Assembly (NCBI GenBank): GCA_037043015.1
Contig: CM073324.1
Coordinates: forward strand, 5,077,413-5,141,412
From: Bryum argenteum
Lineage: Eukaryota; Streptophyta; Bryopsida; Bryales; Bryaceae
DNA: 64,000 nt
Direction of reading: 5' to 3'
The notes under the pieces are model-generated. The model did not search any database. It saw nothing but the letters and a program-made list of their open reading frames with translations, and was not told where the DNA came from. Position 1 is the first letter of the stretch; the number at the start of each line of letters is the position of its first letter. This document shows positions 11,589-46,880 of this stretch, in pieces. The position numbers and the translations under genes are program-made.

Positions 11589-11610
11589 CAGGGTTGTCTT
11601 ATTAGACACA
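11581..11610 (+). repeat. target duplication and left terminal inverted repeat of the giant hAT
   Basis: The duplication AGTGTAGG is at 11581-11588, followed by the terminal repeat CAGGGTTGTCTTATTAGACA(CA) at 11589-11610. Its partner is at 46851-46880. Confidence 0.88.
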
Positions 11611-11799
11611 ATTTTGGGAATGTCTGTCTGATTTGTCGTATTGGACATGTCTGTTAGACGTCGAGTCGACGAAAATGTCGACCGTACCAAAAATTACATA
11701 GTAAAAAACTTGCTGAGATTTACCTTGAGGTAAAAAGCTATTTTCCTACGTGGCGTAGGGTTGGTAATGACGTGGAAAATCAAAATACACGTCACAGTG

Positions 11800-12132
11800 G
11801 GCGACCGCCGGTGGCGACCTCGCTAGGCGACTGACGGTCGCACCGTGGCGAACGTCGGTCGCCTACTGCGACAGCCGATCGCCCTGGCTGCCGCGAGAAG
11901 GCGACCGGCGGTCCAGTATGGAGACCGGCGGTCGCCCTGGCAACCGCTAGTAGACGACCGCCGGTCCAGTACTGAGCGACCGACGATCGCCCAGGGCGAT
12001 CAACGGTCGCTTATAGCGATCGGCGGTCGCCCTGGCAACCGCTATTAGGCGACCGCCGGTCTAGTACTTAGCGACCGACAATCGCCCAGGGCGATCGTCG
12101 GTCGCTTATGGCTATCGGCGGTCGCCCTGGGG
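11800..12132. repeat. type 1 palindrome array, left end of the giant hAT
   Basis: About a dozen copies of GCGACCGCCGGTCGC-like palindromes and variants (GCGACCGACGATCGCCC, GCGATCGGCGGTCGCC, GCGATCGTCGGTCGC) starting ~210 bp inside the left terminus. hAT transposases are known to bind subterminal repeats, so this is a candidate transposase-binding region. It is downstream of the transposase 3' end, so here it is terminal rather than promoter-proximal. Confidence 0.85.
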
Positions 12133-12499
12133 GTAGCGCCCATGTGGCGATGTCTGTGGTGACCAGCACTATGGTTGTATATGAAACAAGAAAAATATAT
12201 CCATATTGGTACAAAATGAGCTTCAAAGCATTTTTATGAATACCTTTTTATCGGAAACAAGGTCAATGGTGCATTTCATAGTACAAATTTGCGCATGTCT
12301 ATAATCATAGTATTCATATATATGATGTAACTATTACATATACCAAACTATATGTATTATACTCCCGAAACATACTAGGATACCAAAGTATTGTAAGCTA
12401 ATAGTTGCCCTACTTTAAAGTACATTGTAGTATTGTACCAGTACTAACAATGAACTTCGTGCTTCCAATCCAAAATAACAAAATTCTAATAACCTGTCT
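12133..12499. other. AT-rich spacer downstream of the transposase
   Basis: No gene seen. Probably the 3' untranslated region of the minus-strand transposase gene. Confidence 0.5.
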
Positions 12500-14365
12500 T
12501 TAGGTATCCTTCAATGTATACGTATCGTCGCTTGATACTTCATCTGCGTTTGGATCGGTTTCACCTAGAGAGTCATCAGTGCTTTGGTCGCCATCCTCGT
12601 CTTCATCCTCTGTCTCATTGCGTACTTCACACTCAACCTCACTCGCCAAATTGCGCAATTCCGTGTCCGTGGTTGTTTTCTTGTTTACTGTAACGAGGCG
12701 CTTCAAGGGCCGTGAAGCATTAGTGATCCCGTTTGCGTTCAATGGTAGATGGCGCATTGTACGTGTATTCGGATTATTGGATGAAGCAATCCCAGCATGG
12801 ACTTCTTCATGTACGCGTGCTCCTTTCCGACATCGTCGATCGTGTGCCTTCCTCAAACGCTTCTGGCCTCGTGTAATACGATTGCGAGGTTGTGTAGATG
12901 GCCCGACGTCTCGTGCCACTGCCAATGCCCGGTTGCATGTTGGACTTGTTGGTTCTATCTTGACCTCCATCTTTGGCAATACCATACGAGTTGTATGGGC
13001 CCCTTTGGGTTGGGTAACCCTTGGGAACAATTGTTGTAGAGGTACATCGGAGTCATCTCCGTTAAGAGTTGAATTCCTTGATCGAATGGTTGAAACTCTA
13101 GGTGACCGTACTTCCATGCAACCTGAATTGGATACATCGTCAGGTTCCACTTTAATTTGGTCCATTTGAACTCCTGTCGTGGTAACCGTGCCCTTCACAC
13201 TCTCAAGTTTATCGTCGTTGTTAGAGTGTGGGCTGCCTTTAAGTGGACCAATGTTCTCTTCATCCATCCGGTTTACCAAGTCTTGTTTCGCTAGGCAGGT
13301 ACTCTCTTGGAGTTGTAAATTTGCCACTCCTTCTCCTTCTGTGTCGCTGGCAAATACCGCAAACTGGCGAGGCAGTTGTGGAACATCCTGGTCGTCATCG
13401 AACTCAAACGGGTCCTTGACATGAATAGTCATGTTTCCTTCGTTGTCGTTCCAATTCTCTAGGTCGTCGTGTTCGCTACCGTCATTGACATAATTGTCGT
13501 CATCCGCCTCCGAGTTATCCATGAATACACCATCATCCCATTCATTGTCCGGTACATAGTCTTCTTCGTCAGAGTCCTCTTCTTCTAAGTAATTTTCGTA
13601 CCACGTTCGGCGCGATCGAGTACGTTTCGGCGCTTCGAGTTTGGCGTTCGCATAGATGTACACAAGGTCCTCTGCTTTGGAAGTTGACAACCGATTCCTC
13701 ACTTTGTTGTGCACGAAAGAGTACATGCTCCAATTCCTCTCACATGATGAAGCTGAACATGTCAATGCCAAAATCCTCTTTGCAATTTTTGGCAAGGCAT
13801 TCCCCGACTTGATGCCACCATTGATGTGGTAACAAGTCACGATGAGCTGGATCGGGGGCCTCGAATTGGTGTTAAATGGACCCGTCCTCTCCTCATATTG
13901 TATGAGTTCCCGCACCACTTCCTCACTGAGACCACTCCCATTGGGGCGCTAAGCTTCCTTATGACCCGGTTTAAAGCTCTTTTTGCTTCTCCATTGTTTT
14001 GAATTGCTCCAATATTTGTCAAATAAGGGTTCAACAAAGGCTGGCTGCATAGTGGAGGTGTGAGCATCATCTCCCATCGTTTTTGAAATGCATCCTCGTA
14101 TTTTGTAGCAATGTCGGGGATAGTTCGAATGGAGGTTCACGCAAAGAGAACACGTGTTCCTTAAGGTCCGACATGATCACATACGCCACAGGCATGGTGG
14201 TACTTCCCCGTCGAACTCCCGAAGAGCTAGAGATCTTGGTTCAACTACTTTGACAAACTTCGTACAATTCTCCTTAACTCATCGCTCCTAATGCTAATCC
14301 GCACATTCCTTGCCTTTGTCTGTAACTGGTGACTGTTTTGCCTGTTGAACAATGTTTGGACAAAC
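12500..14365 (-). pseudogene. hAT transposase, C-terminal part
   Basis: This is the second half of the transposase whose first half is at 19393-20675; element A separates them. Near 14060-13930 the reading contains a NPYL...EAKRALNRVIRKLS segment, and then the hAT C-terminal dimerization domain (LTCSASSCERNWSMYSFVH, then KVRNRL) near 13790-13640. After it comes an unusually long tail of ~350 residues with acidic blocks and basic, possibly nuclear-targeting, patches, ending at 12500. The stretch 14300-13920 needs several frame changes and contains stops, so the gene is dead. The catalytic RNase-H-like fold would span both halves. Confidence 0.85.
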
Positions 14366-14864
14366 ACATGTGTCAAACTCCTATTTCTTTGGTTTTCTGC
14401 ATTTAGCTTAAATTTTTCGAATTTTTGTGAGCATTAGGAATAAAAGGGAACTTTTCTTTTGGTTTCCTTAGTTTAGAAAGGGTAGAAATGAATAAAAGGG
14501 TTTAGCCCCGGTTAAAGTGTTTTTGGAGGTTACCGGCTGGGAAGGTCAACCCGGGTATGGTAACCCTGGATCACCGGTGTCCTGGCCGGGCGCGGGTTGG
14601 GGATAATGGGCGGCGGGCCGACCCGGCCTGTCAGCCCTAACCCTTTTCAGACGGCGGCCCCCCCCATTTCGCGCCACCTGCTTCTCTTCCCCCTCGCGCT
14701 GTCGCTGCTCCGCGTTTTGTCGTGTTGCAGCCAGGAGTGTCGTCATCTTGCGAGCGCGGAGTGTGGTGTCGGTAGGCCAGGAGATTGCGCACGGGAGTGT
14801 ACCGCGTTGAGAGAGAGGGGTGTGAGTGCCAGCGATCGGGGTAGAAGTGCGGGGAGCAGAAGCA

Positions 14865-17800
14865 ATGGCGCCCAAGGAGAATGCGGCCAAGGGAAAAGCT
14901 CGGAAGAAGAAGTCCCTGCCCGAAGCCATCCGGGAGAGGGGAGTGCACCCGGAGATCCCCGTCAAGGCAGAGTACCGCAGGCAGCTGAAGGAAGACCTAA
15001 CGAGGATGGGTGCATCGAGTTTACAATCGACCCTCGGAACTGCAGAGGCCCGCGTTGCTGAAAGAGGTCCAGACAGGAGAGCGCACCGCCAAATTCCAGG
15101 AGGACATGGTGCGGGGGCAGCCTGATGTCTGGGAGAGGGGATTTGGAGAATCACCTACAACCTTGCTGAATCCGAGGTGGGGTATATCACGGTGCGGGGA
15201 GACGAGGAAGTGCAGCGGAGCCTCTCCCAGCCTGCACATGAGCATGACGGATTCAAGGTGGAGCATTGCCTCGATTCCAGGTTGAAGAGGGTGCTGCAGT
15301 TCCTCCTACCCATACTTACCCCGGACAGGCCTTCGAGCGTTGCCAACAAACTCGCCAAGGCTATCCTGGAGTCATACGCGGGGAGGCAGGTACTTGGATG
15401 GCACATCATCCTGGAGGACGTAGTAATCCGGGCAGTGTCCAGGATAAACAATGGCAAGGGTTGCCCATTGACGCCATTTCTATTCCACCTCTACGACGCC
15501 TACAACTGCCTGGATGATGATGAGGCCGCGCAATACGCCAAGGCCTTGGAGGAGAGGCGAACCAGGATCCCAGGAGAGTTTCCCCCGGAGGAAGGAGCAG
15601 GACAAGCCGGGACATCAAGGCGGGCTGATCCAGCAAGATCAGGGGATACCAGCGGAGCTGCAGAAGAGGAAGGGACAGCAGTTACTCCACCCCGGGCCCC
15701 CACCACAACCTCACCAGAAGTACAACAGGAGACTCCAACAGGGGAGTACAACCCCTTCTCCCCCATCAGTCCAGTACAGGGGAGTGGCTCAGGAGAGGAG
15801 TCACCTGCCGTCAGCACCAGGGCAATGCGCCGCAGTACCAGGCCACGGCAGAGGCAGGCCTCTCAACCAACATCCCGAGGCCCCATTCACCTAGACGACT
15901 CAGATGAGGAGAACCCTGTGCGGCAAGCAACCTCTCCAGGAGAAGGATCTCCTCACGATCCGGACCAGGGGAAGGAGTTAGAGGATCCGCTGGAAGGAGA
16001 GCCCCAGCCAAGGAAGAAGAGGAAGACCACCCCGGAAGTGCATCCGGAGTTGTCAGCAAGCCTCTGGATGGGATCCCCTTCACCCAAGCTGAAGAAGCCT
16101 TCAAAGAGAAGGAAGGTGACCTTTGCATCAGATCGGGGAGTAGGAGAGACGCAACCTCCCAAGAAGGTGGTACCCCTGGCCAAGGGGAAAGTGAAGAGGA
16201 GCATCCCGAAGAGGGGGTACGCGGGTCCAGGACAGGAGAGGGTGCCCAGGGAAGAGACGACTGAGGAGAGCAGCGGGTCCGAACCCGAGTCCATGAACAT
16301 ACCCCGGAAGCCTGCAAGACCCCCATCTAACGCAGGAGAGTCCAGCACCCCCGCTCCACGGAAGGAGACTGTCCCGGAGAGAAGGAGAGGAGCCATCCCC
16401 GGTGCACCTACTCCCCTGTTCAGGATTACGGAAGAGAATCCCCTGAGCCCTATCCAGGAGACCCTGCAAATGTGCATGGAGGAGCACAAAGTGATGTATC
16501 GATCGCTCAGGGGAGTAGGGGAAGTCCTGAAGACGAATGCGGTGGAGCGCTACCCCGAGCTGGTGAGAGCCATGCAAGAGCAGCGAGATGCCCTCAACAA
16601 GGAGGTGAAGGAGCTGCGGGATCAGGCCATGGATTTCTCTATCAACATTCTGACCCAGGATAAGGAGATCGAGGCGTTGAAGAAGTATGTCTCGACTCAG
16701 AATGGGTGGGCGCGGGCTAACCTCTTCGCCTTGCAGAAGACTCTGCTCACGCCAGGGGAAGCTCAGGCCAAGGCACGGTTATTTGATGCGCACTTGCAGG
16801 GTGATGGCGCGGATGCCGCGGTGCGCATGGCTGCCTTCCTGAAGAAGTATACGGCGCGGATAGAAGGTGCCATGGAGGAGATGCGAATCCTCCTCAAGGA
16901 GATGTATGAGCGATTTCCAGGAGAGGCAGCAGCAGCCGAGGTAGCAGCAACAGAGGCGGAGGCAACCTGGGGAGTTATAGCGCGAACAGGAGAAATGGGA
17001 GGACCGGGTGAGACTCCTGCGATGTCTACCCCAGCTGATCCAGGGGAGCGAATGGTGGAAGAATCCCAACCTGAAGTTGGGATGGCGTGGGAAGAAGAAG
17101 ATGATCCAGGGGTGATGGATGAGGCCCAGCTAGTGGCCGGGGTAGTGACGGAGGTCCCTCCGGAAGTACCCGAGGCGATGGATGTGGACCTGTTCTTGCG
17201 AAGCGCAAGAAGTGCGGCGGCCAAGTACTAGCCACCGAAGCTCAACCCGAACCCGGGGGTAGAGGAAGAGGTCCTCCCGCACCGGGGAAAGGCAAGAAGC
17301 AGAGATCCACCGGCGGGGGAGATAGAAGAGGCAGCTTCACCAATGGAGGAGGAGATAGCTGCTGCCCCATCAACCCTGGAGACAGAGGAGCAAGAACCAG
17401 GAGAAGGTGTCCCCGTGGTAATCCCACCCGAGTCGGCAGTGGATGAGCAAGCTCCCCCTGGAGAGGAAGCCGTTGCGGGTACTCCCTCCGAGTTGGGAGT
17501 AGAGAGGGAGGTGCCACTCACAGAGGCGGAGGTGATTGATTGCTTAACTGAGGCAGAGGTAGACGGGGAGGCTCAGTTAGGAGGGAAGGTCACCACGGGG
17601 ATCCAGCCTGAGCAGGAGTTACCATCAGTCGAGGCAGTGAGGGCTGATGAACCAGGGCAGCAGGACGGCACCCCAGGAGAGGAGGTCGTTGTAGATGGGG
17701 AAGCTCAACCGGGAAAGGAGGTCATCGAGGGGATCCAGCCCGAACCCAAGTTACCAACAGAAGAGGCCGTAGTTGATCATCTAACCAGGGTTGAGGTACT

Positions 17801-18254
17801 AGTGGTTGATGGGCCAGGACAGCAGGACGACACCCCAGGAGAGGAGATCATGGTAGAAGGGGGAGTCACTCCAGGAGAATCGATGGGCCCACCCACTGAG
17901 GAGCCTGCCCCGGACACTACCGACCCACCTCTAAGCGAAGTCGAGCCGGGGGTACTACTGATACCCGAGACCCCTGTAGTGGTTCCGGAGGAAGTTGTCC
18001 TAGGTGAGGTTGATGCCCTCTCCGAGGGAACGGAACCCTTGGATGTGGAACCCGAGGGAATCACACCCAGGGGAGGACCAGATCTGAAGGAAGGTGCGGG
18101 TAGCAATCTGGAGGAGCGAGGAGAACCAGAGGTTACCAGCATCCTCGTCCAAGTAGACCAGGGGAGTGAAGACAGGGTAGCGGCCAAGCAGACAGCACCT
18201 ACCTTAGTTGGATTCGAGGACCAACCTCGCATCAAGTTGACCAGATCTATTTAG
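14865..18254 (+). pseudogene. long acidic/Pro-rich gene of element A
   Basis: An ATG at 14865 opens a Lys-rich N-terminus (MAPKENAAKGKARKKK). Frame changes between about 15000 and 15150 then lead into a frame open from 15177. That frame has a conserved block around 15290-15520 (FLLPILTPDRPS, GWHIILEDVVIRAVS, GCPLTPFLFHLYDAY), then a long Pro/Glu/Ser-rich part with basic patches, a coiled-coil-like segment near 16440-16900, and an acidic tail. A TAG at 17229-17231 interrupts the frame, which continues open to 18254. The block vaguely recalls plant retroelement gag-like or 'putative plant transposon protein' domains; this is inference. Related copies lie in elements B and C. Confidence 0.7.
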
Positions 18255-19387
18255 CCGTAGGATAAGGGATAGGCATGTAGTAGTAGTATAGAGGTGTGTT
18301 CACACCGTTTTGGACTTGTATTAGCTTTTGTGTGCCTGACTGATAAGCGGTCCAGGAGAGGCCAAGTGGGCCTTATCCTGTCCGGGTATTCCGTGATCCA
18401 CTAAAAGCGGATCTGGAGCATGGAACCCGGAGTAGCGTGGAGGTACTTAGCCAATGAATGTTCTCATTCTTTGGGTCTCTTTTTGTATCATCATCATTCT
18501 CGAAGTATCTAGGATTGCGGCCGCCTTTCTAAGTCTAAACCGTCTTCCTTGATGTTTTGTGTGTGTGTGGTGGTGTAATTGAGTCCCTTGCATTGTTGGC
18601 TTGAAGATCTGGAGGGAAGGTTAGTGTTGGTGAGATCTGTACTAGTGTCCAGGGTAAGGAGTTTTGGCAGTTAGGCGTCACTACGAGTCAGTACTTTAGG
18701 TGAACAGGGGTTCCCTAATATTCCCCGGGGACAGTGGTCTAGCGCGGGGAAGTTGGTCACTGTTGCGGAGAGTGGGTCTTAGTCCTCCTACTATCCTGGA
18801 TCTGTATCCAAAGTTGTCCCTTTCTACCTTCTATCCTGGTTTGGGAGTTAACGTGTGAGTAGCCATACCAACAGGGGAACATTGGCACCCTTATAGTGAC
18901 CTGTACCGGGATTAACAACCCTGGTATTGAAGGGGGCCGAGTCTAACCCTGGGCGAAGTCGAACCAAGAGAAAAGAGCGTTGTGGGTTTGTGTGTTGTGT
19001 TGAGTAGTGAGAGATTCGAGGAGAGAGGAAGTCAAGTGCCCTAAATCCAGCACTTTAAACTAAGGGAGAACCCTCTGATGGACAAACTGAGGTAAAACTA
19101 AACCAGCTTGGAGATATACTGGTGGACCAGGGTAGGAGGAGTCAAACTCCCCTGGAAGGAAACCAGGACAGGAGAAGCAGAATTGCTAACCAGGAGATCA
19201 GCATCATCCTGGTCGAAGGAGAAGTAAGACAGGACAGTGATAGAAGCACTGTCCTGAGAAGGTTACCCTAGTCACTTTGGAGCTCAGTGAATCCCCGCGG
19301 ATCGATTAATCCGGATATCACCTCTGAGGGTGTTCTTAACACTTAAAAGAACACTAAAGGGGAATATCGCTATCACGAATTATGACA
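18255..19387 (+). other. noncoding 3' part of element A
   Basis: About 1.1 kb without a gene. Short blocks (for example CTGAGGTAAAACTAAACCAG near 19090) match the 3' part of element B near 31010 in the same orientation. A hairpin GTGTTCTT...AAGAACAC lies near 19330-19355, close to the end. Confidence 0.6.
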
Positions 19388-19392
19388 ACATG

Positions 19393-20675
19393 CCACTCCG
19401 GATCGATCACCATGTTGTTCAGAGGTTGTTGTAGCTTTAACAACCGCTCTATCATCAAGTAGTTTGTTGCAAATCGAGTCTGAGGTGGTACCTGAGTCGC
19501 AGCTTCGCGAGTACTTCCGAATAGAGCAAGGGGGACGTGGGACCCCTTAATAAATGTGCACACTCTCTTGGCTTGCTCCACCAATTGCTTAACCTACGCC
19601 TCTTTCCCCCAATCTTCCAGAAGGAGGTCTAGAATATGTGCCGCACAACCTTGTCCATACAAGTGAGGATAGTCTATCTGCAACTTCTTCACAGCACCTA
19701 ACATGGAGCTTGCATTGTCGGTGCATATCTGCACGATGTTTTGTGGTCCAACCTCCTCTATGTACTTCGCCATTTCATTTGCCACATAAGCAATGTCCTT
19801 TTTCTTCCCTGTAGTATCCACTGATCCCAAAAACACCTCTCCCCCTTTGGGCAAACGAGCATCATGTTAATGAGTGGTCTGCTTGTGACATCGGACCACC
19901 CATCTGAGCATATTGTTCCTCCGTACTTCTCGATAGAAAGTTTTGTTCGATCCTCTACCGACCTTTGCACAGCCGCCTTCTTCGCATCGAGCATCGTAGT
20001 CCTAATAGTATGATTCGAGGGTGGTTGATATCCACCAATACCGGCCTTTGCTGTCTCTTGAACGGCACTTATGAATGCTGGATGTCGTACGACATTGAAT
20101 GCAATGTTTGCCTCATAGAAAAATGAAGCCCACTTTGCATCCAAATTTTGCCTAATGGCAAGATCAAAACTATCCTCCATACTCCTTTGCCCATGTCGCC
20201 GTCCACTAGTGAGTGTAGAGATCCTTTGTCCATTGCTGCCATGACTCCCCTTGTTAGAGGATGGCACCTGATTAGACCTTAGGTTAGGGGATGGCACTTG
20301 TACAGAGTTGATGCAAGGGGTATCTATGTTCTCTGTAGTTTCCCTTGCCGCATATGGTATGCCGACATCCACTCGTGAGTCAGGAACAACATCCGCATAA
20401 AAAATGTTGTTCTTTGGAACTATCCCTCCGCAGTCACGGAATAGCTCGAGAACTCCACGGGGCAACCTCGTACACCGGAGTAATGGGGAATTGTGAGGAT
20501 ATCCGAAATGAGCAAATGCTCGTTGCCTTACAAAGACTGTGCTTTTCCCACAGAATAAGCACACGCGAGTATTTGGCTTGTCGTTCCGTTCCGTGGATAC
20601 TCGTAGCCACTCGTCCCATTTGCGAGTGTCTCTTCTATTATCTGGTACCCCGTTGGATTGGGAAGAATGCTCCAT
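19393..20675 (-). pseudogene. hAT transposase, N-terminal part (DUF659-type)
   Basis: The start is taken at ATG 20675 (MEHSSQSNGVP); an earlier in-frame GTG is less likely. A BED-like zinc-finger region comes first (KWDEWLRV, CLFCGKS, then HFG), then a Ser/Arg-rich linker, then the DUF659-type core of plant hAT transposases (GGTICSDGWSDVTSRPLINM, then VQICTDNASSMLGA and GCAAHILDLLLEDWG) near 19950-19610. The frame slips near 19860, and a TAG interrupts it near 19594. The reading then runs to 19393, where element A is inserted. A TATA box lies at 20846-20853 and a palindrome array directly upstream of that. Confidence 0.88.
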
Positions 20676-20853: not shown

Positions 20854-20862
20854 CTCCACAGC

Positions 20863-21018
20863 CAGATCGGCGGTCGCCACAGCGAGATCGGCGGTCGCCC
20901 TAACAACAACGCTGTCGCGCCATGTGAACCGGCAATCGCCCTGGCCTTGACTTCATCGCGCTAGCTGGACCGCCGGTCGCCCTAGCCCTGACCCACTTGG
21001 ACCGCCGGTCGCCATAGC
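20863..21018. repeat. type 1 palindrome array upstream of the transposase
   Basis: Copies such as GATCGGCGGTCGCC, GGACCGCCGGTCGCC and GAACCGGCAATCGCCC, ending just before the TATA box of the transposase. Candidate binding sites for transposase autoregulation (inference). Confidence 0.8.
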
Positions 21019-21558: not shown

Positions 21559-22263
21559 TCATTCTTCGCTTGGGCCCCCTTCATTGTAAAGTTGGCTTGG
21601 CCCCCCTTCTGTACAAACTTGGCTTGGCCCCCCTTCATTAAAATGTGCCTGACCTTCCTCCATCGTTTGGTTCGGCTCCCCTTCATCCACTTCTCGGCTT
21701 TCGGTCCCTTCTTCTTCCGAATCTGACCAAACTATGTCCTCATCAGGGATTCCTCCTTTGTAACCCCTAGGTGTTGTAAGCCCTTCTCGTGGGTTGGCCG
21801 ATGGATAAGGAGCTCGCGGAATATGGGGTTCTGTTGGCTTAATTGTTTGAGGGGATTTTTTAAACGTCCTCCAATCCACGTCCCTCTGCAAAATTACCTC
21901 CGCGTACACCATTTGTGCTATGTTGTACGAAACCTCGTTGCTCACCACATGCACACCGGCGTAGAGGAACTTCCACACTTCAATGCATCGTTGCACAAAT
22001 TCATCGTGATGGCAATAGTGCAAATTTGCGCAATTCAGGCGGCGATGAAACTCGTGACGATAGTGTGGAAACAAATGGCCGATGTGGAACCAAGCAATGT
22101 ACCACTTGCAAGTCTTAAGGGTCCACGGTTCCTCTACTTGCGCCCACCCCGGAAAAGCCTGTTGCGTGGGATCTATGAGAATCTTGTGAAATCTCCTTTG
22201 CTTCTTTCCTTTCCTCTTGCGGTCCTTGTCTCTCGCTATCTTCCGCTCCTAGCTAGGCGTCAT
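21559..22263 (-). pseudogene. WCHI-family gene 1
   Basis: From ATG 22263 the frame meets a TAG at codon 5, then stays open to 21559 (~230 codons). The N-terminus is Lys/Arg-rich. The family core follows: an FPGW motif, WFHIGHLFP (where the paralogues have WCHI), then H-x3-H, ANLHYC, EFVQRCIEVW and MVYAEV. The C-terminus is acidic, with four EGGPS repeats. The closest relative here is gene 2 (33526-34485). The function is unknown; spaced His and Cys residues suggest metal binding, which is inference. The early TAG may be a decayed CAG or GAG codon. An array and a weak TATA-like CATATA (22529-22534) lie upstream. Confidence 0.65.
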
Positions 22264-22550: not shown

Positions 22551-22875
22551 GCGACCGCCGATCCAGCTGAAGGGCGAGCGTCGGTCGCCAGGGCGACCGC
22601 CGATCCACCCAATGGGCGAACGTCGGTCGCTGGGGCGAACGTCGGTTCGCTGGGGCGACCGCCGATCCAGCGGATGGGCGACCGCCGGTTCACTTGGTGT
22701 GCGACCATCGGTCAGAGGGCGCGACCTCCAAATGGGAGGGCGCGACGTATGCGTGGGGGCGCGACCTCTGGATCGCGCGACCGCCGATGCAGCGGACGGG
22801 CGAACGTCGGTCGCTGGGGCGACCGCCGATCCAGCTGGTGGGCGACCGTAGGTCACTGGGCGACCGCCGGTCCAC
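22551..22875. repeat. type 1 palindrome array upstream of WCHI gene 1
   Basis: At least ten copies of GCGACCGCCGATCCAG, GCGAACGTCGGTCGC and relatives, sharing the GCGA(C/A)CG-N-CGGTC core, on the 5' side of WCHI gene 1. Confidence 0.85.
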
Positions 22876-27390: not shown

Positions 27391-27430
27391 AATCCGAGAT
27401 TTTACATCCACCCCGGGTTGATCAGGGAGG

Positions 27431-34689: not shown

Positions 34690-34895
34690 GCGACGGCGGT
34701 GTCCCGGCGACATCGTTAGGGCGACCGCCCGGTCCAGTGTTTCTTGCAAGACTCGCTCCGGGCGACCGCCCGGTCAGTGTTTCTTGCAAGACTCGCTCCG
34801 GGCGACCGCCCGGTCAGTGCAGCAGACCTCGGCGACGCGGTGCGGCCGAGAAGAGTTTCGATCCGGCCTCGAGCGGAGAGCGGGCGACCGGCACG
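34690..34895. repeat. type 1 palindrome array upstream of WCHI gene 2
   Basis: Two exact 40-base units (TTCTTGCAAGACTCGCTCCG then GGCGACCGCCCGGTCAGTGT) and a partial third at about 34730-34820, with single copies around them. The core here is GCGACCGCCCGGTC, a slightly longer centre than elsewhere. A weak TATA-like TTAAATAC on the minus strand lies near 34668-34677. Confidence 0.85.
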
Positions 34896-36220: not shown

Positions 36221-36530
36221 GGCGACCGCCGATTCAGCTCATGGGCGAACGTCGGTCGCTAGGGCGATCGGCGGTCCAGCTTTGGGCGAACGTCGGTCGC
36301 TAGGGCGACCGCCGGTCCAGCTCATGGGCGAACTTCGGTCGCTGGGGCGATCGGCGGTCCAGCCAATGAGCGAACGTCGGTCACAAGGCGACCGCCGGTA
36401 TACCTGATGGGCGAACGTCGATCGCTCATGGGCGAGCGTCGGTCGCTGGGGCGATCGGCGGTACAGATAGGGCGATAGTTGGACCAGCGGGCGACCGGCG
36501 GTGCACATTTTGTAAACCGCCGGTCGCCTT
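36221..36530. repeat. type 1 palindrome array upstream of WCHI gene 3
   Basis: About twelve copies alternating GCGAACGTCGGTCGC, GCGATCGGCGGTCCAGC and GCGACCGCCGGTCCAGC, spaced ~20-25 bases, ending ~145 bp before the gene 3 ATG. Confidence 0.87.
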
Positions 36531-36672: not shown

Positions 36673-37998
36673 ATGGAGGCACTACCCGTTGTAGCGAGCA
36701 CATCCATGGTGCGCCATGAGCGAGGTCGGATTGCGAAGAAGCGCAGAGCTATCTTGAAGAATCCAAAGTTAGTAGCGTTTAGAGGATGGGAGAAAGAGAG
36801 GGGGCCGTGGTCTTTTGCCATATGTGAGAAATATGTGGAGTGGTGCCACATCAACAAGCTCTTTCCTTTACATTGGCACAATATTCATCGGCACAAGAAT
36901 GAAGCTAACCTCCGAGAGTGCCATCATTACGATTTCAAAGCGAGATGCATCTATGCTTGGCATATGATATACGGTAACAACCATATTTTTAAATATGAGG
37001 TTCCCTACTTTTTGGCACAAATGGCATATGCGGAAATGATTCTCGGGAAGAATGTGCATTGGTGGACGCATCCACGTTTGCCTATACAAGAGAAGACCGA
37101 ACCAATAGAGGTTGGAGAGACATCAAAGACTATTGAAGGAGATGGAATTGGAACGGTACCTATGAGTCCTAAGGCCGACGCGGAATTTTACACAGCAGGG
37201 TCTTCTTCTGAATCCTCGGAGGATGAACACACACACGAATACGAGCTCGATGAACCAACTGGTCCTCCAATGCATTGGATTGAAGGAATATCCTTTGAGG
37301 TAAATCCATTCCGAAAAGTGGGTGGAAGATTATCCAAAGCCATGGATACTTTGATCATTTTGCACAATTTAAGTATAGCAAAATGCATCGAATTGGATTT
37401 AGTACTGCAGAATAGAAAGGAATTGGAAGCCCTCAAAGAAAGAGCCCTTTCTACACCATACGATGTACAAGAAGAATGTCGGGAGGTTTTCGAAAAAGCT
37501 CTAGACATCATAGCTGACATGGAGACCATGTTTGTGCTACGAAAAGAGGCTAAGGAGAAGTTTTTCGAGAAGAAAAATTCAAACAGCCTTTCCATAGAAG
37601 ACTACGTAGAGTTCTGGACAACTAAACATAATTACCTGGAAGGGGTCCTAGCTGAGAGGAGGGATCAGTTGACGGATATTGAAGAATCTATTGCTCTAGA
37701 GGTAGATAAAGAGATGCTACGCATTCGGGATTTGGCATTAGCGGGTAAGTATGGCAAGACTCCAGAGGAAGTTGACAAATTAAAGAGGCTGGTGAAATGG
37801 AGTGAAGACCAGAATGTAAAACTCGCAAAGCAACTACGTGTAGCTGAGGAGAATGCTCGATTTGAGGACGCATGGGCAGAGTGGGCTCATCGTAAAAGTA
37901 ACGCAAAAGATGACATCAACATAAACGCAATCGACGTTGATTTGGAACCGCAACGATCACTTTTTTCAAAGGGCAAGGAAAAAGTTGAAGATTCTTAA
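36673..37998 (+). CDS. WCHI-family gene 3, intact
   Basis: Start taken at the first ATG of the frame, 36673 (MEALPVVASTS); the ATG at 36706 (MVRHERGRIAKKRR) is the alternative. 441 residues, no stops. A basic N-terminus is followed by FRGWEKERGPW, then YVEWCHINKLFPLHWHNIH, EANLREC, FKARCIYAWHMIYG and FLAQMAYAEM, a middle region with acidic/Ser patches, and a coiled-coil-rich C-terminal half (about residues 215-420). The H, H, C, H, C spacing could bind a metal (inference). It is the only cargo gene of the giant element with a full open frame. The function is unknown and I recognise no named domain. Confidence 0.8.
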   Translation: MEALPVVASTSMVRHERGRIAKKRRAILKNPKLVAFRGWEKERGPWSFAICEKYVEWCHINKLFPLHWHNIHRHKNEANLRECHHYDFKARCIYAWHMIYGNNHIFKYEVPYFLAQMAYAEMILGKNVHWWTHPRLPIQEKTEPIEVGETSKTIEGDGIGTVPMSPKADAEFYTAGSSSESSEDEHTHEYELDEPTGPPMHWIEGISFEVNPFRKVGGRLSKAMDTLIILHNLSIAKCIELDLVLQNRKELEALKERALSTPYDVQEECREVFEKALDIIADMETMFVLRKEAKEKFFEKKNSNSLSIEDYVEFWTTKHNYLEGVLAERRDQLTDIEESIALEVDKEMLRIRDLALAGKYGKTPEEVDKLKRLVKWSEDQNVKLAKQLRVAEENARFEDAWAEWAHRKSNAKDDININAIDVDLEPQRSLFSKGKEKVEDS

Positions 37999-38432: not shown

Positions 38433-40762
38433 TCATTCACTAGGCTGAGGGTTGGAGCATTCTCCAACAAGAAGTTTGTGCTTTTCACGAGTTCGATTGA
38501 ATGGACCATCTGCATTTAAGATCAGATCTAATACTCTAGAGTCTTTCAAGTCCTGCAAAGTCCTTCTTGTGAGGGGACTATGTACATCCAGTAAATAGTC
38601 TAGAGCTTGAGATCGGTATCGTGGCCCCCAAGTAGACTCAAAGATATTGACACTCTTCCAAATCTTCCATGGAGGCACGACCTTCACCGTCGGTTACTCT
38701 CTTCCCATATTGATTCCATCGATGTCCCATTGGATGGGGCCCCCACTTGAATGTATTAGAGCTCACATCAAAATAACCTCCAAGGCATTGGAAGAAGAAC
38801 ATCCGATTACCGTCATGCTGTGGACCGTGTCCGGCAAGTATTGGAGCAACTCTTAGAATCTCGTTTGGGTCAGTCTCCCAATTCAATTGGGAGCTAGGAG
38901 TACTCTTCTCGAGATCATTTTCACCTCTACGCCAACTCCAAATAAGGTTTTTACCCCAGAATCGAACCTCGTCAGTAGTCTCAGCATTGTGTTCCCAAGA
39001 AGGCGGCATATAAGTTCTTAGATTGAACATCTCGTAGAACCGCTCGTGAAAAGGCGCTTTGCATATAGCACAACGACTTTGAGTCAAACAATGAACTAAA
39101 AGACACTGCGGATGATACATATGGACACAAGAGCCTAAAGCCCATCCACCCTCAGGTCCAAATGGATTTAGGCATATGGGACACGTAGAGTGATCCAATA
39201 CAAACTGCGGAGGGTTGGGCCACAATAATGTCCTGGATTCTACATCAACATGTGCCGACATGTGGTGTTTGAAATTCCACCCGGCCTTGCTCCAATCTAC
39301 AACCTCTGTAGAAGTGTCATCTTGCATCTTGATGTCCATCATAGGAAGATTATCAAACAATGTATCCACACTCGGCCACGAGGTCATACCGAACGTTCGC
39401 CGACCGGCTCCACTAGTAAAATTCTTATTGATCTTCTCAACTCGCCGCAACTTGTCTCCCTCTATCCACCGAAAGTATACATGCCACCTTCCAATGGTAG
39501 TAAGTGGCAGACAACTGCTCCAAACGGGCTTGCAGTTGTTGCTTTTCCTTTAATAAGGAGTTGTATCCATCAGACGACATGAAAGGGGGATTACGAATAG
39601 GGGAAAGCGGTAAAGATAAAGAATCTTGAGAATCACATCGTACATCTTCTTCTCGTTCGAGGCCCGACATATTAACAACACATGGCTGAGCTTTCACAGG
39701 ACGGCGCAATGTAGGGCGTTGCGGTGACATTTCTCCAAATGCCAAGTCCTTTGTAAGGTTGAAGACAACTCTATCAACATCCGCCATGTCAGATTTCTCT
39801 ACATCTCCACGAATGTTACGTGCGTGAGATAGTTCTTGCATCTTCTCGCGCATGCGTGCATATTCCACGGAAAGCTGCTCCCCTTCTTTCACCTTCTCCT
39901 CATACATTGCTCGTGTTTTTTCGAGATCCGCTTCCAATCTTGCTATGACGTCGTCTTTACTCTTCAGAAGAGCTTTGAGATCAGAAGATGTGTCAAGTTC
40001 TTCCAATGGTAAGATGCAAGTACCATGGGGCTCTACTACGGGTGGATGATTACTTGCTATTGGAGGGCGAGAGCCACCTATTTCAGGAACGCGGCCAGGT
40101 AAATTACGACGATGATCCGCATCAATCACAACGTTGGCGGGAGGAAGAGGTTGTTGAACTTGACGCACCGCCTTACGAGGCCGCGAACCATCCGAGTCAT
40201 CGTCCTCTTCCGATGTAGCACTATGATAGGCAGCCTCTTCCATAGCCTTGGTAATAGACCTCGTCACCGCCATGTCACCATTAGGAGCGTCAGGGAATCT
40301 TAGAATGCCTGTCGGAATGTCACTCGTTGAAAGTCGTGTTACATGCTTCCCCTCTTTGACAGTTGTCCAATCTACTCGTTTACCAAGAGCAACCTCGGCG
40401 TATACTCCACGAGCAAGAAACAATGGAACCTCGTTGCGCTCCACACATGGCATGCCATACAGGACTTGGTAAACCTCAATGCATCGTTGCTTGAAGTTTG
40501 GGCATTCGCAAAACTTAAGATTTGCCTTGTTGGTGCGCCGATGAAAATGGTGACGAGACAGAGGGAATTTCTTCTCAATGTGACACCATTCAATGAACGA
40601 TTCGCAAGTGGCCATCGTCCACATATCTGGTTCATCTTCCCAACCTCTGAAGGCAAGCTTATTTGGATTTAGAAGCACGTGTAATCTTTTCCGTTGTGGA
40701 GCGCCCTTCCTCTTCCTCTTCTTGTCGTTCTCTTCCTTCCGAAGTTGCCCGAGAGTAGCCAT
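38433..40762 (-). pseudogene. WCHI-family gene 4 fused to a RING-H2 finger
   Basis: ATG at 40762. The first frame (40762-39437, 441 residues) has the family core (FRGWEDEPDMW, WCHIEKKFPLSRHHFHRR, ANLKFC, FKQRCIEVYQVLYG, VYAEV), an acidic middle and a coiled coil. A frame change near 39480-39490 leads into the next frame, which carries a RING-H2 finger near 39190-39050 (CPICLNPF, then GSCVHMYHPQCLL, then RCAICKAPF) and Trp-rich sequence. A second change near 38690-38670 leads to the last ~80 residues, ending at 38433. RING-H2 domains are typical of E3 ubiquitin ligases. Short introns cannot be excluded, but frameshift decay or a fusion of two genes is simpler. Confidence 0.7.
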
Positions 40763-40910: not shown

Positions 40911-41267
40911 GGCGACCAGAAATTTAAGGCGACCGGCGGTCAAGATAAAGGTATGGCGTTGCGTGGCGACCTCCGGCCCAGTGAGAGCGCGACCGCCGGT
41001 GCAGCTAATCGCGACAGCGGGAGGCAGGGCGACCGCCGATGCAGCTGTTCGCGACAGCGGGACGTAGGGCGACCGCCGGTCCAGCTGTTCGCGACAGCGG
41101 GACGTAGGGCGACCGCCGGTGCAGCTGTTCGCGACAGCGGGACGCAGGGCGACCGCCGGTCCAGCTGTCGCGACTGCGGGACGTAGGGCGACCGCCGGTG
41201 CAGCTGTCGCGACAGCGGGACCTGGGGCGACCGCCGGTGGGCGACTGTAGGGCGACCGCCGGTCTCC
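40911..41267. promoter_or_regulatory. type 1 palindrome array as bidirectional promoter
   Basis: Six to seven units of ~40 bases, each GCGACCGCCGGTCCAGCTGT plus TCGCGACAGCGGGACGTAGG or close variants, with extra single copies at both ends. The array sits between the TATA box of gene 4 (minus, 40889-40896) and that of the kinase gene (plus, 41273-41280), so it probably serves both genes. The GCGACAGC and CAGCTGT segments add further small inverted repeats. Confidence 0.8.
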
Positions 41268-41272
41268 AAGGA

Positions 41273-41280
41273 TATATAAA
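41273..41280 (+). promoter_or_regulatory. TATA box of the kinase-like gene
   Basis: TATATAAA starting six bases after the end of the array, ~155 bp before ATG 41431. Confidence 0.65.
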
Positions 41281-41430
41281 CCCCAACGCGCGGGTTTGTT
41301 ATTACTTTTCCCCAAACCGCTACCGAATTCTCTTCCGCCCTGTGTCCTTGCTCGTCTTAATGATGCGCACTGCCGGGTCGTCTGAGGAGTTTTGGGGTTT
41401 GGTGCACATTGATAGCAGGGGGGAGATTTT

Positions 41431-41710
41431 ATGCCGCTTTTTTCAAGATTTTCGACGATGACTAAATCCAAAAAGCACGGGAAGGGACAACAAGCATGGG
41501 ATCTGGATGCCCCCGAAACATTTGCACCAGACGTTGGAGGGGAACAACCTAGTGGAAGTGGAGGCCATAAGAGGAAGAGGAGACACCCAAAAGAAGACAG
41601 ACCCGGATTCCCAACAACAGATTATACTAAGTTTGCGGAAAAAGCATGCATGGATTGGTATGAGGAAACGGAGGCTCAATTCCTAGAGCACAACTACCTC
41701 ATGAATGTTA
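41431..41710 (+). pseudogene. kinase-like gene, N-terminal part
   Basis: ATG at 41431 or 41458 (MTKSKKHGKG). Basic and Gly-rich N-terminus (GGHKRKRRHPKEDRPGF), then YTKFAEKACMDWYEETEAQF. At 41710 a CACTA element interrupts the frame; without it and one TTA copy the frame continues at 44719. See 44719-46016 for the catalytic part. Confidence 0.7.
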
Positions 41711-44700
41711 CACTACTAGAAATAGTGTTATTTGTGACCGGCAAATATATGACTGCTTGGTACCTATGACTACAAAATGAATGAGAGATGACTAAACGTC
41801 GTACAAATCAATTGCCTGTCATTCGCCTATCATTGACTTTTGGTTGCATCGGACACCGAACGAAGAGAGGGCTGAAAGACTAACTACATCCACCTCTTCT
41901 CATTCCTCCTTCCTTACGTGGCTAATCGCAAGTCATTCTGCAGTCATTGCCTTTGGGGACTATTAGTTTGTTTTCCCCCGATCTGACATATTTTTTACAT
42001 GTTCGGCTGACGTGGACATTGGAAAGTCATTCAGCAGTCATCTTTGTGAAGAACTCTAGTTAGTATTTTTAAAGGATCCCGTGTGGCACGTTTGTTTTTT
42101 ACCTATTTTATTTTTGTTGTATATGAGTGATGACATGGATAATGCAAAGTCATTTTGTTGTCATTTCATGTCGATTACTTCAGTTATATTTTTTTTGATG
42201 ATCTGACATGGCTTATTTTTTTTCTATTTAGTTTCTCTATTTAAAAAATATTAGTTGATGTGGAAAATTTAGTGTCATTTTGTAGTCATATGTTGTTGAA
42301 GACTTGAGTTATATATTTTTTAGAATCCGAAGTGGCCGTTCGTTTTTTTCGTCATTTATTATTTTCGATATATATTTTGTGACGTGTATAAGGCGTAGTC
42401 ATTGAGCAGTCATTTGATGTCGATAACTGCAGCTTCTTGTTTTTTTAGATGAGATGTGCCTAAGTTTCATTATTTTGCAATGGATTTTCAAGCAGCCCAT
42501 GTGGCGCTTTCTATTTTTATTAGTTTATATATTTCGTATATTTGTGCTGACATGGATTTTGTGAAGTCATTTGGAAGTCATTTACTCTTTAGTATTTCTG
42601 ATTTCTTTTTTAAAGGATCCGACGTGGCATCTTTATTTCTACGTAGTTTTTAGATTTAAAAATATTTAGTTGATGTGGAAAATTTAGAGTGATTTTGTAG
42701 TCATATGTCCATGATGACTACAGTTCAAACAAGTCATCTTTATTACTATAAAAAACTAAATAGCAAAATTTTCATCTATGGCAATAGAATTGCTGACATG
42801 GCAATACAATTCTTCAAAATATCATTATTCTTATCCAATAGGGCTAACAAATGACAAATTTAGGCCTTGTGACAAATTTCATTAGTCTTTCAACATGACC
42901 GTAAGGTTGAGAGAAGACTCATTAAATAATGTGAAATTGAAATTTACAGCAATTAGTGTAGGCAGAATGGTCATAAATTAGTGTGGTCAAACTTATCAAA
43001 CCCTAACCCTAACTGCACCACATATTATGGGTTGCACCATCTCTCAGCCTCTCTTTTTCTTGTACCATTTTTTGAAGTTTAGATTACTCTCTTTCCTCTC
43101 AATCTGAAGCTCTCTTGTTCTTGATTTTTTCATTAAAGCTCCTCTCTTCTCTTAGTTACCTTGCACTTATTGCCTTTTGTTTAGAGTAGTTCATTCATAG
43201 TAGTTAGAGAAAAACACAAACATTACTAATTAGACATGCATTTTTTTTTTGTTTTTTTTGTGAGTTTAGGTGTTATGAACTTATGATGCCATCTCTGAGT
43301 AAGGAGTGTGGAGAAGAATGGTTGTGAAGGTATGTCTATCTCCTTCCTTTCTTTTTTTCTGTTTTTTGCTTGTAAGCGCGGTAGGAAGTTCAAGCAAATG
43401 GTGATTACATACCCTAAAGTAATGTTTTAGCAACCTAACACTTAAACAAAGATGAGAGAATACACACATGCCAATAATGAAGTCTACCAAAAAAATCCAG
43501 TACTCAATCTTCAACAATAGTACCTCGGCAATCTTGAAAACCCTAATGTTGTCGGCGCCGCCATACTAGGGCTGAGATTTTAGGGTTTAGATCTTAATAC
43601 TATAGTATGACTTAGAAATGACATAGAAATGACTTAGAAATGACTTGCAAGAACCAAAATATGACTAAAGAATGACTCGTAGGGAACCAATTTTCATACC
43701 TTTCAGCAAGCATCGGAACCACTAGTCGTGAATATATGACTTTGAAATGACCTGATCAATATAGGGAATGACTAGTAATTGACACGAGAAACAAGAAAAA
43801 TCTGGTAAATTCGACCAACCATAATCGGACACGGGTTCGCCACGTCATCTCCCGCGCATCTACTTCGTATGTCGACGAACCACATTCCGCCACGTCATAA
43901 GTCATGCCTTCGCTCTAGTCATAAATAAGTAGTAACGGCTTACAGCTACAGACATAAATCAGTCACATTATGAATTCCATAACACAAGCCACATCATCAT
44001 TCTCGCCTTTACATCAAATTTGGACCAACCAGAGTCGTCCACGTCAGCAGTCATGGCCACCCTATAGTCATAAATCACAAGTCACGCCTAAAAGCTATAG
44101 TCATAAATCAGTCACATTATGAATTCCTAAAAAATAGCCATGTCATCATTCCCGCCTCCACATCAGAAGTTGACCAATCAGTACCAGCCACGTCAGCAGT
44201 CACGGCCACGCTATAGTCATAAATTAGCAGTCACTCCTAACAGCTATAGTCATAAATCAGTCACACTATGAACCCACAAAAAAATAGAAACGTCAGCATT
44301 CCTGCCTCCACATCATATTTGGACCAACCATAGACGGCCACGTCAGCAGTCATTACTACCGGATACAATCATAAATCAGTCACAGTAAGATATTGAAAAA
44401 AGTTGACACGTCATCTCTCACGCCTCCACGTCGGATTTCTACCCCCCTGCCTGAATCCCACTTCAATTCCACGTTGGAAGCCACATCGGAAAATCCCGCC
44501 ATGTGAGTATCCACGTTGGCAGCAGACGCGATGACGTGAGGATGGATGAAATCGCAGTCATATGTACCATTGGAGAGACATGACTTCGTACCTATGACTA
44601 CAAAATGACAAAAAATATCGAAACGACCAGTAGTCATATCCAGGCCGGTTTTGGTACATATGACTGGAATTACAGTCATTTCTACAAGACATAAATACGA

Positions 44701-44718
44701 ATATTTCTAGTAGTGTTA
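41708..44718. mobile_element. non-autonomous CACTA (En/Spm) element, 3.0 kb
   Basis: The element is 41711-44715. It begins CACTACTAGAAATA and ends TATTTCTAGTAGTG, the classic CACTA terminal repeat, with the 3-bp duplication TTA at 41708-41710 and 44716-44718. Both ends hold dense subterminal repeats of AGTCAT/ATGACT types (41740-42720 and 43600-44690), as in CACTA elements generally. It contains no transposase frame; the interior (~42,900-43,600) is AT-rich and unrecognised. It inserted into the kinase-like gene. Confidence 0.92.
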
Positions 44719-46016
44719 GCACGGGCAAAGAGAGACTGAAGAAGAAATTGGCGGCAGTAATTTTGAAGGCCATGGAGGAAACGGAGAAATACCAAGATGT
44801 GGATTATTATTCACAATAAGGGTTGTGGATGGATAATACAGTTGAACAATGCATCTTAAATGTAAAGGAGTTGTGGAAGAAGCGATTTGGAACGAGGCGT
44901 CTAACACAAGAAGAGGACTAGTTTAAACGCAAGATGGATTGGTGGATACACACAATCCAAAAGCTTAGCAAGAATAAAACCCGAGGGAAGTCATGGGAAA
45001 AAACCGCTTTGCGCGCCACATTTGAACGAGACACAGGGTCGGGGGTGGTGCGGATTCCTCAAGACGCTACGATAGAAGCTCTATCAGGCCGCAATATGGA
45101 GGGAGGCCATGGACTGGTGCGGAAGGTGAAGATACTTGGAGTAGACCACGTTCCAGAAAATGTCGAGTTTGCAGCAAAGCTTTCCAAGAATATGAATCTT
45201 CAGAAGAGGAGGATAGAGACTGCTGCAGAAGCTCTTGTATGTCCTTTGAATCATCCAGGAATTATCAAGTTTTGGGCGTTGCATACAAGGACATTCGAAG
45301 CTTACTCATATTGGTGGAATGGGGGATCACTACACGAGATGTTGAAGTTGGATGAGAAGGTCGGGGACAAACATCTTCATTGGTCGAAAGTGAAGGAAGT
45401 TCCGAGTCTCACTCCAGAGGAGGCTTTCAGAATTAGCCTTTTCCGTCAGCACATGATGAAGTTAGCTTGGGGTTTAGTGTACATCATGAATCTCGTGCAT
45501 AAGACAGGAGTTCTGCACAACGACCTATCCCCCTCGAACATACTATTGCATTTCCCAACTTTCGGAGGAACCAAGATTTGTATTGGAGTGTGTGACTGGG
45601 GGATGGCATCTCGTATAGTAGAACAACAGCCTTCACGTTACGGATACCAGACGACGCCAAAAAAACAGGAAGATAAGACACGTCGATGGTGGGTGGCGCC
45701 CGAGTTGTTCTATACTTATGGACCTGAAGGTTCTGATACAAATTTGAACATCTAGGAACTTCGACATCCAACCACGGTAGCATCAGATTCGTATGCGGTT
45801 GGCAAGCTCATCCAGCTGATTGGTGTGCATAACGAATTCGACGAAGAATTATTACCGAATTCGACGGTGCGAGATTCATTCCTAACGAAAGTGTTTTCAA
45901 TGACCAGGCATGAATTAAATGAGAGAATGACCTGTGCGGAGGTGGTGAACCGCTTGATGGCGAAACCATATCATATGCTTCCACCGGAGCTTGTATTTAG
46001 AGAGGACAGTTATTAG
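44719..46016 (+). pseudogene. kinase-like gene, catalytic part
   Basis: Continues 41431-41710 after the CACTA element. Kinase landmarks in order: a Gly-containing N-lobe start, FAAKLSK (candidate ATP-binding Lys, ~45170), the catalytic loop HNDLSPSNILL (~45517), CDWGMAS replacing DFG (~45592), WWVAPELFY as the APE motif (~45690), and DSYAVGKLIQLIG in the C-lobe (~45786). In-frame stops lie at ~44818 (TAA), ~44920 (TAG) and ~45753 (TAG), so the gene is dead even without the insertion. The HNDL loop is unusual but keeps Asp and Asn. The plant kinase subfamily is not assigned. Confidence 0.8.
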
Positions 46017-46429
46017 TTTATAATATCAGTATATCTTCTTGCAATTCATAGACTCCTTTGGATGACCATCTCACGTCATTGAGTGCTCATTTAGCCATGT
46101 AATTCACATTTCATACTTGCAATATATACAATCTACTTTTTGACATATTGTTCCAAATCTAATAGATTTTTGCAACTCTTATAATTATGTTCCCTTTTTA
46201 CACTAGTCACGTATGTATGTCACCACATTTTGTGTTACATGAGTTTCAAACCTCATGGTTGATGTTAGCCTTTTCTTCAGGGGTTTGTGGATTGTTGTAC
46301 TTTGTTTCATCTTGAATTCTTAATGCTTCATATACGTTTAAAAACGTGAACGGAAGAATTTTGGATAATGTTGGATAAAAAAATTTACTTATTCTACTCG
46401 GGGGAAGCCTCCAATGCAAGGCCAGCCTA
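46017..46429. other. 3' region of the kinase-like gene
   Basis: AT-rich, no gene seen. Confidence 0.5.
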
Positions 46430-46430
46430 G

Positions 46431-46700
46431 GCGACCACCGGTCCAGGGGCCAGAATAGGCGACCACCGGTCCAGCGAGACCGCCGGTCGCCCTGGGCGAT
46501 CGTCGGTCTCTCATGGGCGATCGTCGGTCGACCCTGGGCGATCGTCGGTCGACCTGGGCGATCGTCGGTCGCTAAGGCGACCGCCGGTCCAGAGAAGGCG
46601 ACCGCCGGTCCGGCCAAGGCGACCGCCGGTCTAGATGACGCGACCGCCGGTCTAGATGACGCGACCCCCGGTTCAGTCCTACGTGGCGCGGTCGCGAACC
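46431..46700. repeat. type 1 palindrome array, right end of the giant hAT
   Basis: About a dozen copies of GGCGACCACCGGTCCAG, GCGATCGTCGGTCGC and GCGACCGCCGGTCTAG, ~170-440 bp inside the right terminus. This mirrors the array 190-540 bp inside the left terminus. Confidence 0.87.
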
Positions 46701-46850
46701 GTATTGCTGAGCTGTACATGCCACGTGGCAGCCACGTAGGATGCAACGTGGACAGGGTAAATCCAGGGTAAAAAAAAGATTCTGTAGATTCTATTATACA
46801 TTCTGAGGCTCAATGTCTGTCTGACATGTCGTGTCTGTCTGACGTCCGTC

Positions 46851-46880
46851 TGTGTCTAGCAAGACAACCCTGAGTGCAGG
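46851..46880 (-). repeat. right terminal inverted repeat and target duplication of the giant hAT
   Basis: Terminal repeat at 46851-46872 ending AAGACAACCCTG, followed by the duplication AGTGCAGG at 46873-46880. Pairs with 11581-11610. Confidence 0.88.

Follow-up and report, generated by a model that had tools for sequence, protein, structure and literature searches.

hAT transposons are described as elements of less than 4 kb, with terminal inverted repeats (TIRs) of 5–27 bp and target-site duplications (TSDs) of 8 bp (PMC3517528); Ac, for one, is 4.6 kb (PMC3260210). What are we to make, then, of a hAT element that seems to be 35 kb long and to hold a whole set of genes? The question is raised by a locus in Bryum argenteum, in a 64,000-nucleotide stretch—'the window' from here on—of the forward strand of contig CM073324.1, assembly GCA_037043015.1 (C4:5077413-5141412). 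The original prediction, made from these letters alone, was of a giant hAT transposon at positions 11589–46872 with a multi-gene cargo: a transposase, four WCHI-family genes, a RING finger and a kinase-like gene. We find that a giant hAT unit moved as a whole, a point on which we have next to no doubt, and that the unit is ~20 kb. On balance we favor the explanation that the window holds a decayed copy of a once-autonomous hAT of ~20 kb that encoded its own accessory proteins, and that these proteins bound arrays of a short palindrome in the element itself.

The left TIR (11589–11610, + strand) starts with CAGGGTTGTCTTATTAGACACA; the right TIR (46851–46872, − strand), which ends at 46872, reads CAGGGTTGTCTTGCTAGACACA when inverted. 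The two are identical at 20 of 22 positions, and their length is within the range described for hATs. Outside them lie 8-bp TSDs, AGTGTAGG on the left (11581–11588) and AGTGCAGG on the right (46873–46880), that differ by one transition; in all of this the original prediction was accurate. The window element aligns end to end with a 19.8-kb copy elsewhere in the genome, C9, apart from three stretches unique to the window. These add up to 15,266 bases, and when they are subtracted from 35,284, 20,018 remain, in keeping with the ~20.0 kb predicted after removal of nested inserts. The size of the unit is thus ~20.0 kb; the 35 kb reflects three later, nested insertions, and is ruled out as the true size of the element. 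When the flanks are joined, an open frame of 228 amino acids (aa), a putative gene, spans the insertion site. Better evidence for an empty site, which the prediction had proposed should be looked for, came from the genome: the joined flanks have five matches, two being the flanks themselves and three being sites on C1 (75–78% identity) that align over the junction without a gap, and are hence paralogous sites without the element.

Is the unit a family, or an accident of one locus? With up to 3 mismatches allowed, the 32-bp left end is matched 211 times and the 36-bp right end 106 times in the 258.8 Mb and 25 contigs of the genome; the reversed controls are matched nowhere. From 107 left ends (100 of the 211 matches, as listed, plus extra positions) and 100 of the 106 right ends, 74 same-strand pairs less than 80 kb apart could be formed. 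Thirty-six of these measure 2.3–12.1 kb, 23 measure 17–23 kb (16 of them 19.0–20.0 kb), 12 measure 24–50 kb, and 3, possibly false pairs, exceed 70 kb. Among the 35 pairs of 17–50 kb we read the TSDs of 27, a sample that included the window, C9, C5, C6 (29.2 kb), C10 (48.9 kb), C7 and C8: 22 were perfect, 2 had one mismatch (the window copy and C10:4180238) and 3 did not match. Pairs of 2.3, 7.9 and 12.1 kb had perfect TSDs as well (3/3 read). Matches on this scale, set against none in the controls, together with the TSDs, rule out chance pairing of the ends.

Five full-length copies were fetched: C9, C7, C8, C10 (at 4.18 Mb) and C1 (at 24.53 Mb). They are 19.4–19.9 kb long, 94–98% identical among themselves, and have the same ends, arrays and genes as the window element, in the same order—the further copies that the original prediction had suggested seeking. 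They sit at different places in the genome, each between its own TSDs (four perfect, C10 with one mismatch), and each has one left and one right end, with no internal end found at up to 4 mismatches. All five contain transposase sequence, though decayed. The C1 copy lacks the non-coding DNA around the site of the second window insert and carries ~1.3 kb of private sequence within its transposase gene; the C7 copy holds ~0.3 kb of its own. Shorter pairs with the same ends are frequent (36/74), and one might picture a macrotransposon, in which two short hAT elements on either side of unrelated DNA carried it along on a single occasion, or else a chance pairing of the ends. The prediction, too, had reckoned with ends that each belong to a separate short element, and with the lack of any second copy bearing the same genes. 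Such readings, to which we give a negligible probability, are refuted by the five 20-kb copies, which share their content, sit in different places, have TSDs of their own and lack internal ends. With 23 of 74 pairs at 17–23 kb, five of them read through, the family shows that multi-gene units of large size can be moved again and again by hAT machinery.

The unit has six genes. The transposase gene (12500–20675, − strand, start codon at 20675) encodes DUF659 and Dimer_Tnp_hAT domains, both above the Pfam cut-off (2.2e-34 for DUF659 in the C9 copy, 5.7e-6 for Dimer_Tnp_hAT in the C1 copy), N-terminal stretches that have no Pfam match, and a long C-terminal extension. Its N-terminus has 19 relatives, 15 of them labelled DUF659. 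SDGWSD, CTDNASSM and CERNWS, candidate parts of a catalytic D-D-E triad, were spotted in the transposase by eye. Four genes encode a WCHI domain of ~130 residues, with conserved W, C and H positions and a basic stretch before them: W1 (21559–22263, −), W2 (32893–34485, −), W3 (36673–37998, +) and W4 (38638–40762, −). In W4 the domain is followed by a stretch that looks, by eye, like a coiled coil, and then by a RING finger. The original prediction counted transposase, four WCHI genes and kinase correctly, but took the RING finger for a gene of its own; in C7, W4 and RING form a single open stretch of 551 aa, downstream of a stop, which rules out a separate gene and makes the RING the C-terminus of W4 (hence W4-RING). 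The sixth gene (41458–46016, +) is protein-kinase-like, with a match to PF00069 of 2.9e-11, above the Pfam cut-off.

In the window these genes have decayed. The transposase gene is broken by the insert at 14371–19387, and the kinase-like gene by a CACTA-like insert and by stops; W1 has an in-frame stop at codon 5 and W2 has one in-frame stop; W4-RING is split over two frames. W3 is open. In other copies, W1 is open from its start codon for 234 codons (C7, C10), W2 for 515 (C7), W3 for 443 (C9) or 444 (C7), W4 for 529 (C1) and the kinase-like gene for 516 (C10).

The genes do not stand alone. At up to 2 mismatches a 13-bp palindrome, CGACCGNCGGTCG, has 70 matches in the window. Every one of them lies within the element; the remaining 28.7 kb has none, and five first-order Markov sequences derived from the element gave 0–2. 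The matches form arrays, one near each end (left subterminal, 11802–12124, with 14 matches; right subterminal, 46432–46653) and others upstream of the start of the transposase (20864–21011), of W1 (22552–22873), of W3 (36246–36526) and, shared by both genes, between the divergent W4-RING and kinase-like genes (40930–41265). W2 has upstream of it an array of 40-bp repeats (34719–34819) that was missed at 2 mismatches in the window and is a motif cluster of its own in the five other copies. Thirty start codons were sought in the five copies and 25 were located; the nearest motif lies 155–312 bp upstream of all 25, and no motif occurs within 320 bp downstream of any of them. Coding sequence makes up about half of the element, and none of the motifs falls inside it (0/70 in C7, 0/62 in C10). 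Rotation of the motif positions gives P values of 0.007–0.012 per copy, the copies not being independent. The number of motifs per array differs from copy to copy, and in C7 the arrays have 14.8 CpG per 100 bp versus 4.0 elsewhere. The 15-base array core is matched at 3,764 places across the genome, its control at 2. Among the 100 places listed of these 3,764, 36 are far from listed ends; a different element family might have lain behind them, and the one place of the 36 that was sampled (L114, 2 kb) turned out to be of the same family, 93.5% identical to C9. Because the same repeated signal occurs near both ends and in front of the genes, the arrangement suggests that the element brings its own control system with it.

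Array sequence also persists in derivatives with retained ends. Eight of 30 left-end loci track the full element beyond 1.6 kb; of the others, 19 break off at 344–370 bp and 3 at 291, 322 and 983 bp. On the right, 15 of 30 loci track it beyond 1.6 kb, 10 break off at 354–421 bp and 5 elsewhere. The derivatives thus keep ~346 bp of the left end and ~420 bp of the right, and since what they keep contains array sequence, the arrays seem to belong to the minimal ends.

What binds the arrays? It is likely, we think, that they are binding sites for a protein that the element encodes. Of the element's proteins, those of the WCHI family are the best candidates, because they are amplified and constrained, have a basic N-terminal stretch, include one that is fused to a RING finger, and are confined, as far as searched, to the element and three database relatives; even so, we put their being the binders at an even chance. 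If they are, the element might work as follows. Its DUF659-type transposase would act on the CAGGGTTGTCTT ends, cutting out the 20 kb in one piece and pasting it in elsewhere with an 8-bp duplication; this anatomy is shown by the TSDs, the empty sites and the several full-length copies. WCHI proteins would be sequence-specific DNA binders that recognize the CGACCGNCGGTCG palindrome: at the ends they would help to assemble the transposition complex, and at the promoters they would switch on the element's own genes or keep them unmethylated. Ubiquitin-ligase activity would reach these sites through the RING fusion, and the kinase may have its targets among factors of the host or of the element. 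A dual role of this kind, in transposition and in activation or anti-silencing, would follow the precedent of VANC and TNPA (below). That the arrays and their binder serve to counteract silencing, and not simply to activate genes or to help with transposition, strikes us as possible though somewhat doubtful. The bolder statement, that this is a six-gene self-regulating hAT in which a new WCHI family of DNA-binding proteins, by reading the CpG-dense palindrome at its ends and at each of its promoters, couples transposition with escape from silencing, we advance tentatively, at somewhat less than even odds.

A simpler arrangement deserves consideration. The Ac transposase binds subterminal repeats, and the transposase here, with its Pfam-less N-terminal stretches and its C-terminal extension, has room for such an activity; the arrays might be bound by it, while the WCHI, RING and kinase proteins have other functions, such as countering host silencing at other places. 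Ac/Ds elements are also reported to have some subterminal repeats in common (PMC3260210). Binding by the transposase leaves the arrays 155–312 bp upstream of the located start codons without an account, unless the transposase is a transcription activator too, and we regard this alternative as unlikely. The arrays themselves suggest how such an element might coordinate its genes and withstand silencing, an idea open to direct test.

Whether selection acted on the genes of the element can be asked of their substitutions. The count took in codons with a single variable position, no more than two alleles and sequence from at least four copies. Changes common to at least two of the five copies are nonsynonymous in 60 of 99 cases (null expectation 73.8) and include no stops. 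Of 351 changes seen in a single copy, 236 alter the amino acid or introduce a stop (null 261.1), stops making up 13. We take this to mean that the genes were maintained for as long as the element lineage was active and that each copy decayed afterwards. Between the WCHI domains of W1 and W2, nonsynonymous divergence (dN) is 0.29 and synonymous divergence (dS) is 1.17; for the other five pairs, dN is 0.52–0.65 and dS is 2.25, 2.54 or saturated. By these measures the WCHI genes are an old set of paralogues under constraint. Relatives are few. A search of 5.8 billion proteins with W3 found one, P0001, 55% identical over 46% of the query, and an alignment-based search of the same collection added two, P0002 (88%) and P0003 (94%); distant relatives were possibly missed, since ~8,000 candidates were scored per search. 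A viral origin for the domain was considered and set aside, predicted viral structures having given 8 weak matches and 0 significant ones; the exact left-end 21-mer is absent from the viral contigs searched, a collection from which the window's own genome may be left out.

Should these genes be called cargo, as they were at first? Kinases and RING fingers are common host domains, and the accessory genes could be host genes that were trapped between hAT ends and play no part in the life of the element. The presence of just those two domains fits such a capture, as does the lack of constraint on W3 described below, and passenger genes do accompany a hAT-like transposase in ToxhAT (PMC6737239). 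Against it stand the recurrence of the same genes in five full-length copies, the age and constraint of the WCHI paralogues, the element's own array at each located gene start, and the yield of just three WCHI relatives from 5.8 billion proteins. Capture is in our view quite improbable. Because an array lies upstream of each gene and the WCHI domain is constrained, 'cargo' is probably a misnomer: that there are genes between the ends stands, and they look like the element's own accessory genes.

Several observations weigh against the explanation we favor, that of a once-autonomous element with array-binding proteins of its own. Each of the five fetched copies has at least one of its six frames closed, and in none of the four with a located start is the transposase open from start to end, the longest run being 426 codons; it is for this reason that we only infer that the family was once autonomous. 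We defined the motif in retrospect, on the very arrays in which it was then counted, and the five copies are not independent. One array (31867–32195) adjoins no recognized gene start, and inspection by eye of inter-array frames of at least 55 aa in C9, C7, C8 and C10 revealed no long shared frame that might be a seventh gene under it. Shared changes in the accessory genes alone are nonsynonymous in 49 of 77 cases (null 57.3), a modest signal, and those in W3 in 13 of 14 (null 11.2), which is no constraint. The RING match (PF13639, 1.5e-5) scores 25.6 bits, slightly below the cut-off of 27.3. For the WCHI domain there is no above-cut-off match in Pfam and no matching PDB sequence, and its AlphaFold model matches no PDB fold, so that DNA binding by WCHI proteins lacks support from homology. 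That model, built on an alignment of six sequences (P0003 was left out because it covers only the C-terminal part), is of moderate quality, with a mean predicted local distance difference test (pLDDT) of 78.2 and a predicted template-modelling score (pTM) of 0.72, the five models spanning 47.6 to 78.2. Finally, only 5 of the 23 pairs of 17–23 kb were read through, and the 29.2-kb C6 pair carries derivative-type ends, so that a long pair is not necessarily a full-length element bearing inserts.

By its transposase domains, TIRs and TSDs the family is hAT, and it resembles the Ac/Ds, Tam3 and hobo elements of that superfamily in having shorter derivatives with the same ends; at ~20 kb and six genes, it differs from them in scale. 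Its arrays have their nearest counterparts in other superfamilies. VANC of Arabidopsis is reported to bind tandemly repeated motifs in the non-coding regions of VANDAL elements and to induce loss of DNA methylation (PMC5735166). The Bryum element, too, has motif arrays in its non-coding regions, but the motif is different, there are four WCHI paralogues, demethylation is here a proposal only, and the transposase has hAT domains whereas that of VANDAL is described as Mutator-like (PMC6446971). No relation of WCHI to VANC was detected, though no direct comparison of the two was made. In En/Spm, TNPA is reported to recognize subterminal repeats that are cis-determinants of transposition, and a plant CACTA element of 20.5 kb exists (PMC2613891). 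Subterminal repeats with an accessory protein are common to both systems, the protein being DNA-binding in the case of TNPA and perhaps so here; unlike En/Spm, the Bryum element has CAGGGTTGTCTT ends and 8-bp TSDs, not CACTA ends and 3-bp TSDs, and its arrays also mark the starts of genes. The likeness to VANC and TNPA is thus one of anatomy only, and if the bolder statement above is true, their roles were invented independently in a third transposon superfamily, by unrelated proteins.

Large or gene-bearing hAT elements are known as well. ToxhAT, from fungi pathogenic on wheat, is a composite of 14.3 kb with several genes, a hAT-like transposase and 74-bp TIRs, for which no TSDs were identified and which occurs elsewhere mostly as fragments (PMC6737239). 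The Bryum family shares its size class and its multi-gene make-up, but is multicopy and has TSDs; the available part of the account of ToxhAT mentions no array system. The hAT7 elements of rust fungi, which have 7-bp TSDs, carry a TET/JBP gene, from a class with a part in removing methylcytosine (PMC12730594); they too are hATs with an extra gene, whereas the Bryum element has several uncharacterized proteins, arrays and 8-bp TSDs. Pack-TYPE elements likewise enclose host-type coding DNA between TIRs (PMC8903248) but are non-autonomous, whereas the Bryum family has a transposase gene of its own, decayed in five copies. Among the titles and opening lines of abstracts in the open-licence literature searched, we recognized no 20-kb hAT family with genes such as these. 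With no recognized Pfam family or fold, the WCHI family is a candidate for a new family of DNA-binding proteins, and arrays in front of genes and near both ends of one element would provide a simple signature by which other self-regulating giant DNA transposons might be found.

Of the three later inserts in the window copy, none is the element's own. The first (14371–19387, 5,017 bp) is flanked by a duplication of acatg and has ends TGTCA..TGACA; the second (24104–31349, 7,246 bp) is flanked by agaggat and has ends GTCG..CGAC. Both are absent from the five other copies, GC-rich and provided with long open frames and duplications, of 5 bp and 7 bp respectively; long terminal repeats were not found in either. 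The third, in the kinase-like gene (41711–44715), is CACTA-like, with ends CACTACTAGAAATA.. and a duplication of tta; as a window-only stretch it runs from 41711 or 41714 to 44713, the boundary being ambiguous by a few repeated bases.

Some members of the family have had eventful histories. Two full-size pairs in opposite orientation, C1:10218197-10238168 (−) and C1:10436905-10456397 (+), account for two of the three unmatched TSDs, and carry each other's duplications, CGTGTGAA and CTGACCGG being swapped, as expected if recombination between them had inverted the intervening ~200 kb. In a 19.5-kb pair, C1:26042522 (−), the flanking 8-mers CACCTGTC and GGTAAGAT do not match; it is possibly another rearranged copy. 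A 19.6-kb pair, C1:26689050 (−), is flanked by AGGGCGAC and array-like sequence, and for that reason was probably inserted into the array of another copy; sequence like this flank, at 2 mismatches, was found only in the left arrays of the window and C1 copies. Among the derivatives, L037, L040 and the left loci L004, L008, L010, L013, L018 and L022 have the same non-coding segment beside the retained end, ~6.6–7.2 kb of copy C9 at 95–96% identity, which suggests that a few non-autonomous derivative types were amplified. The family is over-represented on C1, which makes up 17% of the assembly and holds 37 of the 100 right-end matches listed, perhaps because C1 is a sex chromosome or a repeat-rich one. 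The right ends among the matches listed fall into two main subtypes, ..CTAGCAAGACAACCCTG and ..CTAATAAGACAACCCTG, the latter being closer to the left TIR.

Beyond the element, the flanks in the window contain an Hsp70-like open reading frame (48744–50519), an eight-copy tandem repeat of 41 bp (53386–53715), a gene with a GIL1/IRKI C-terminal domain (54333–56345), which points to a land-plant host, and an integrase of the retroelement type (60861–62267).

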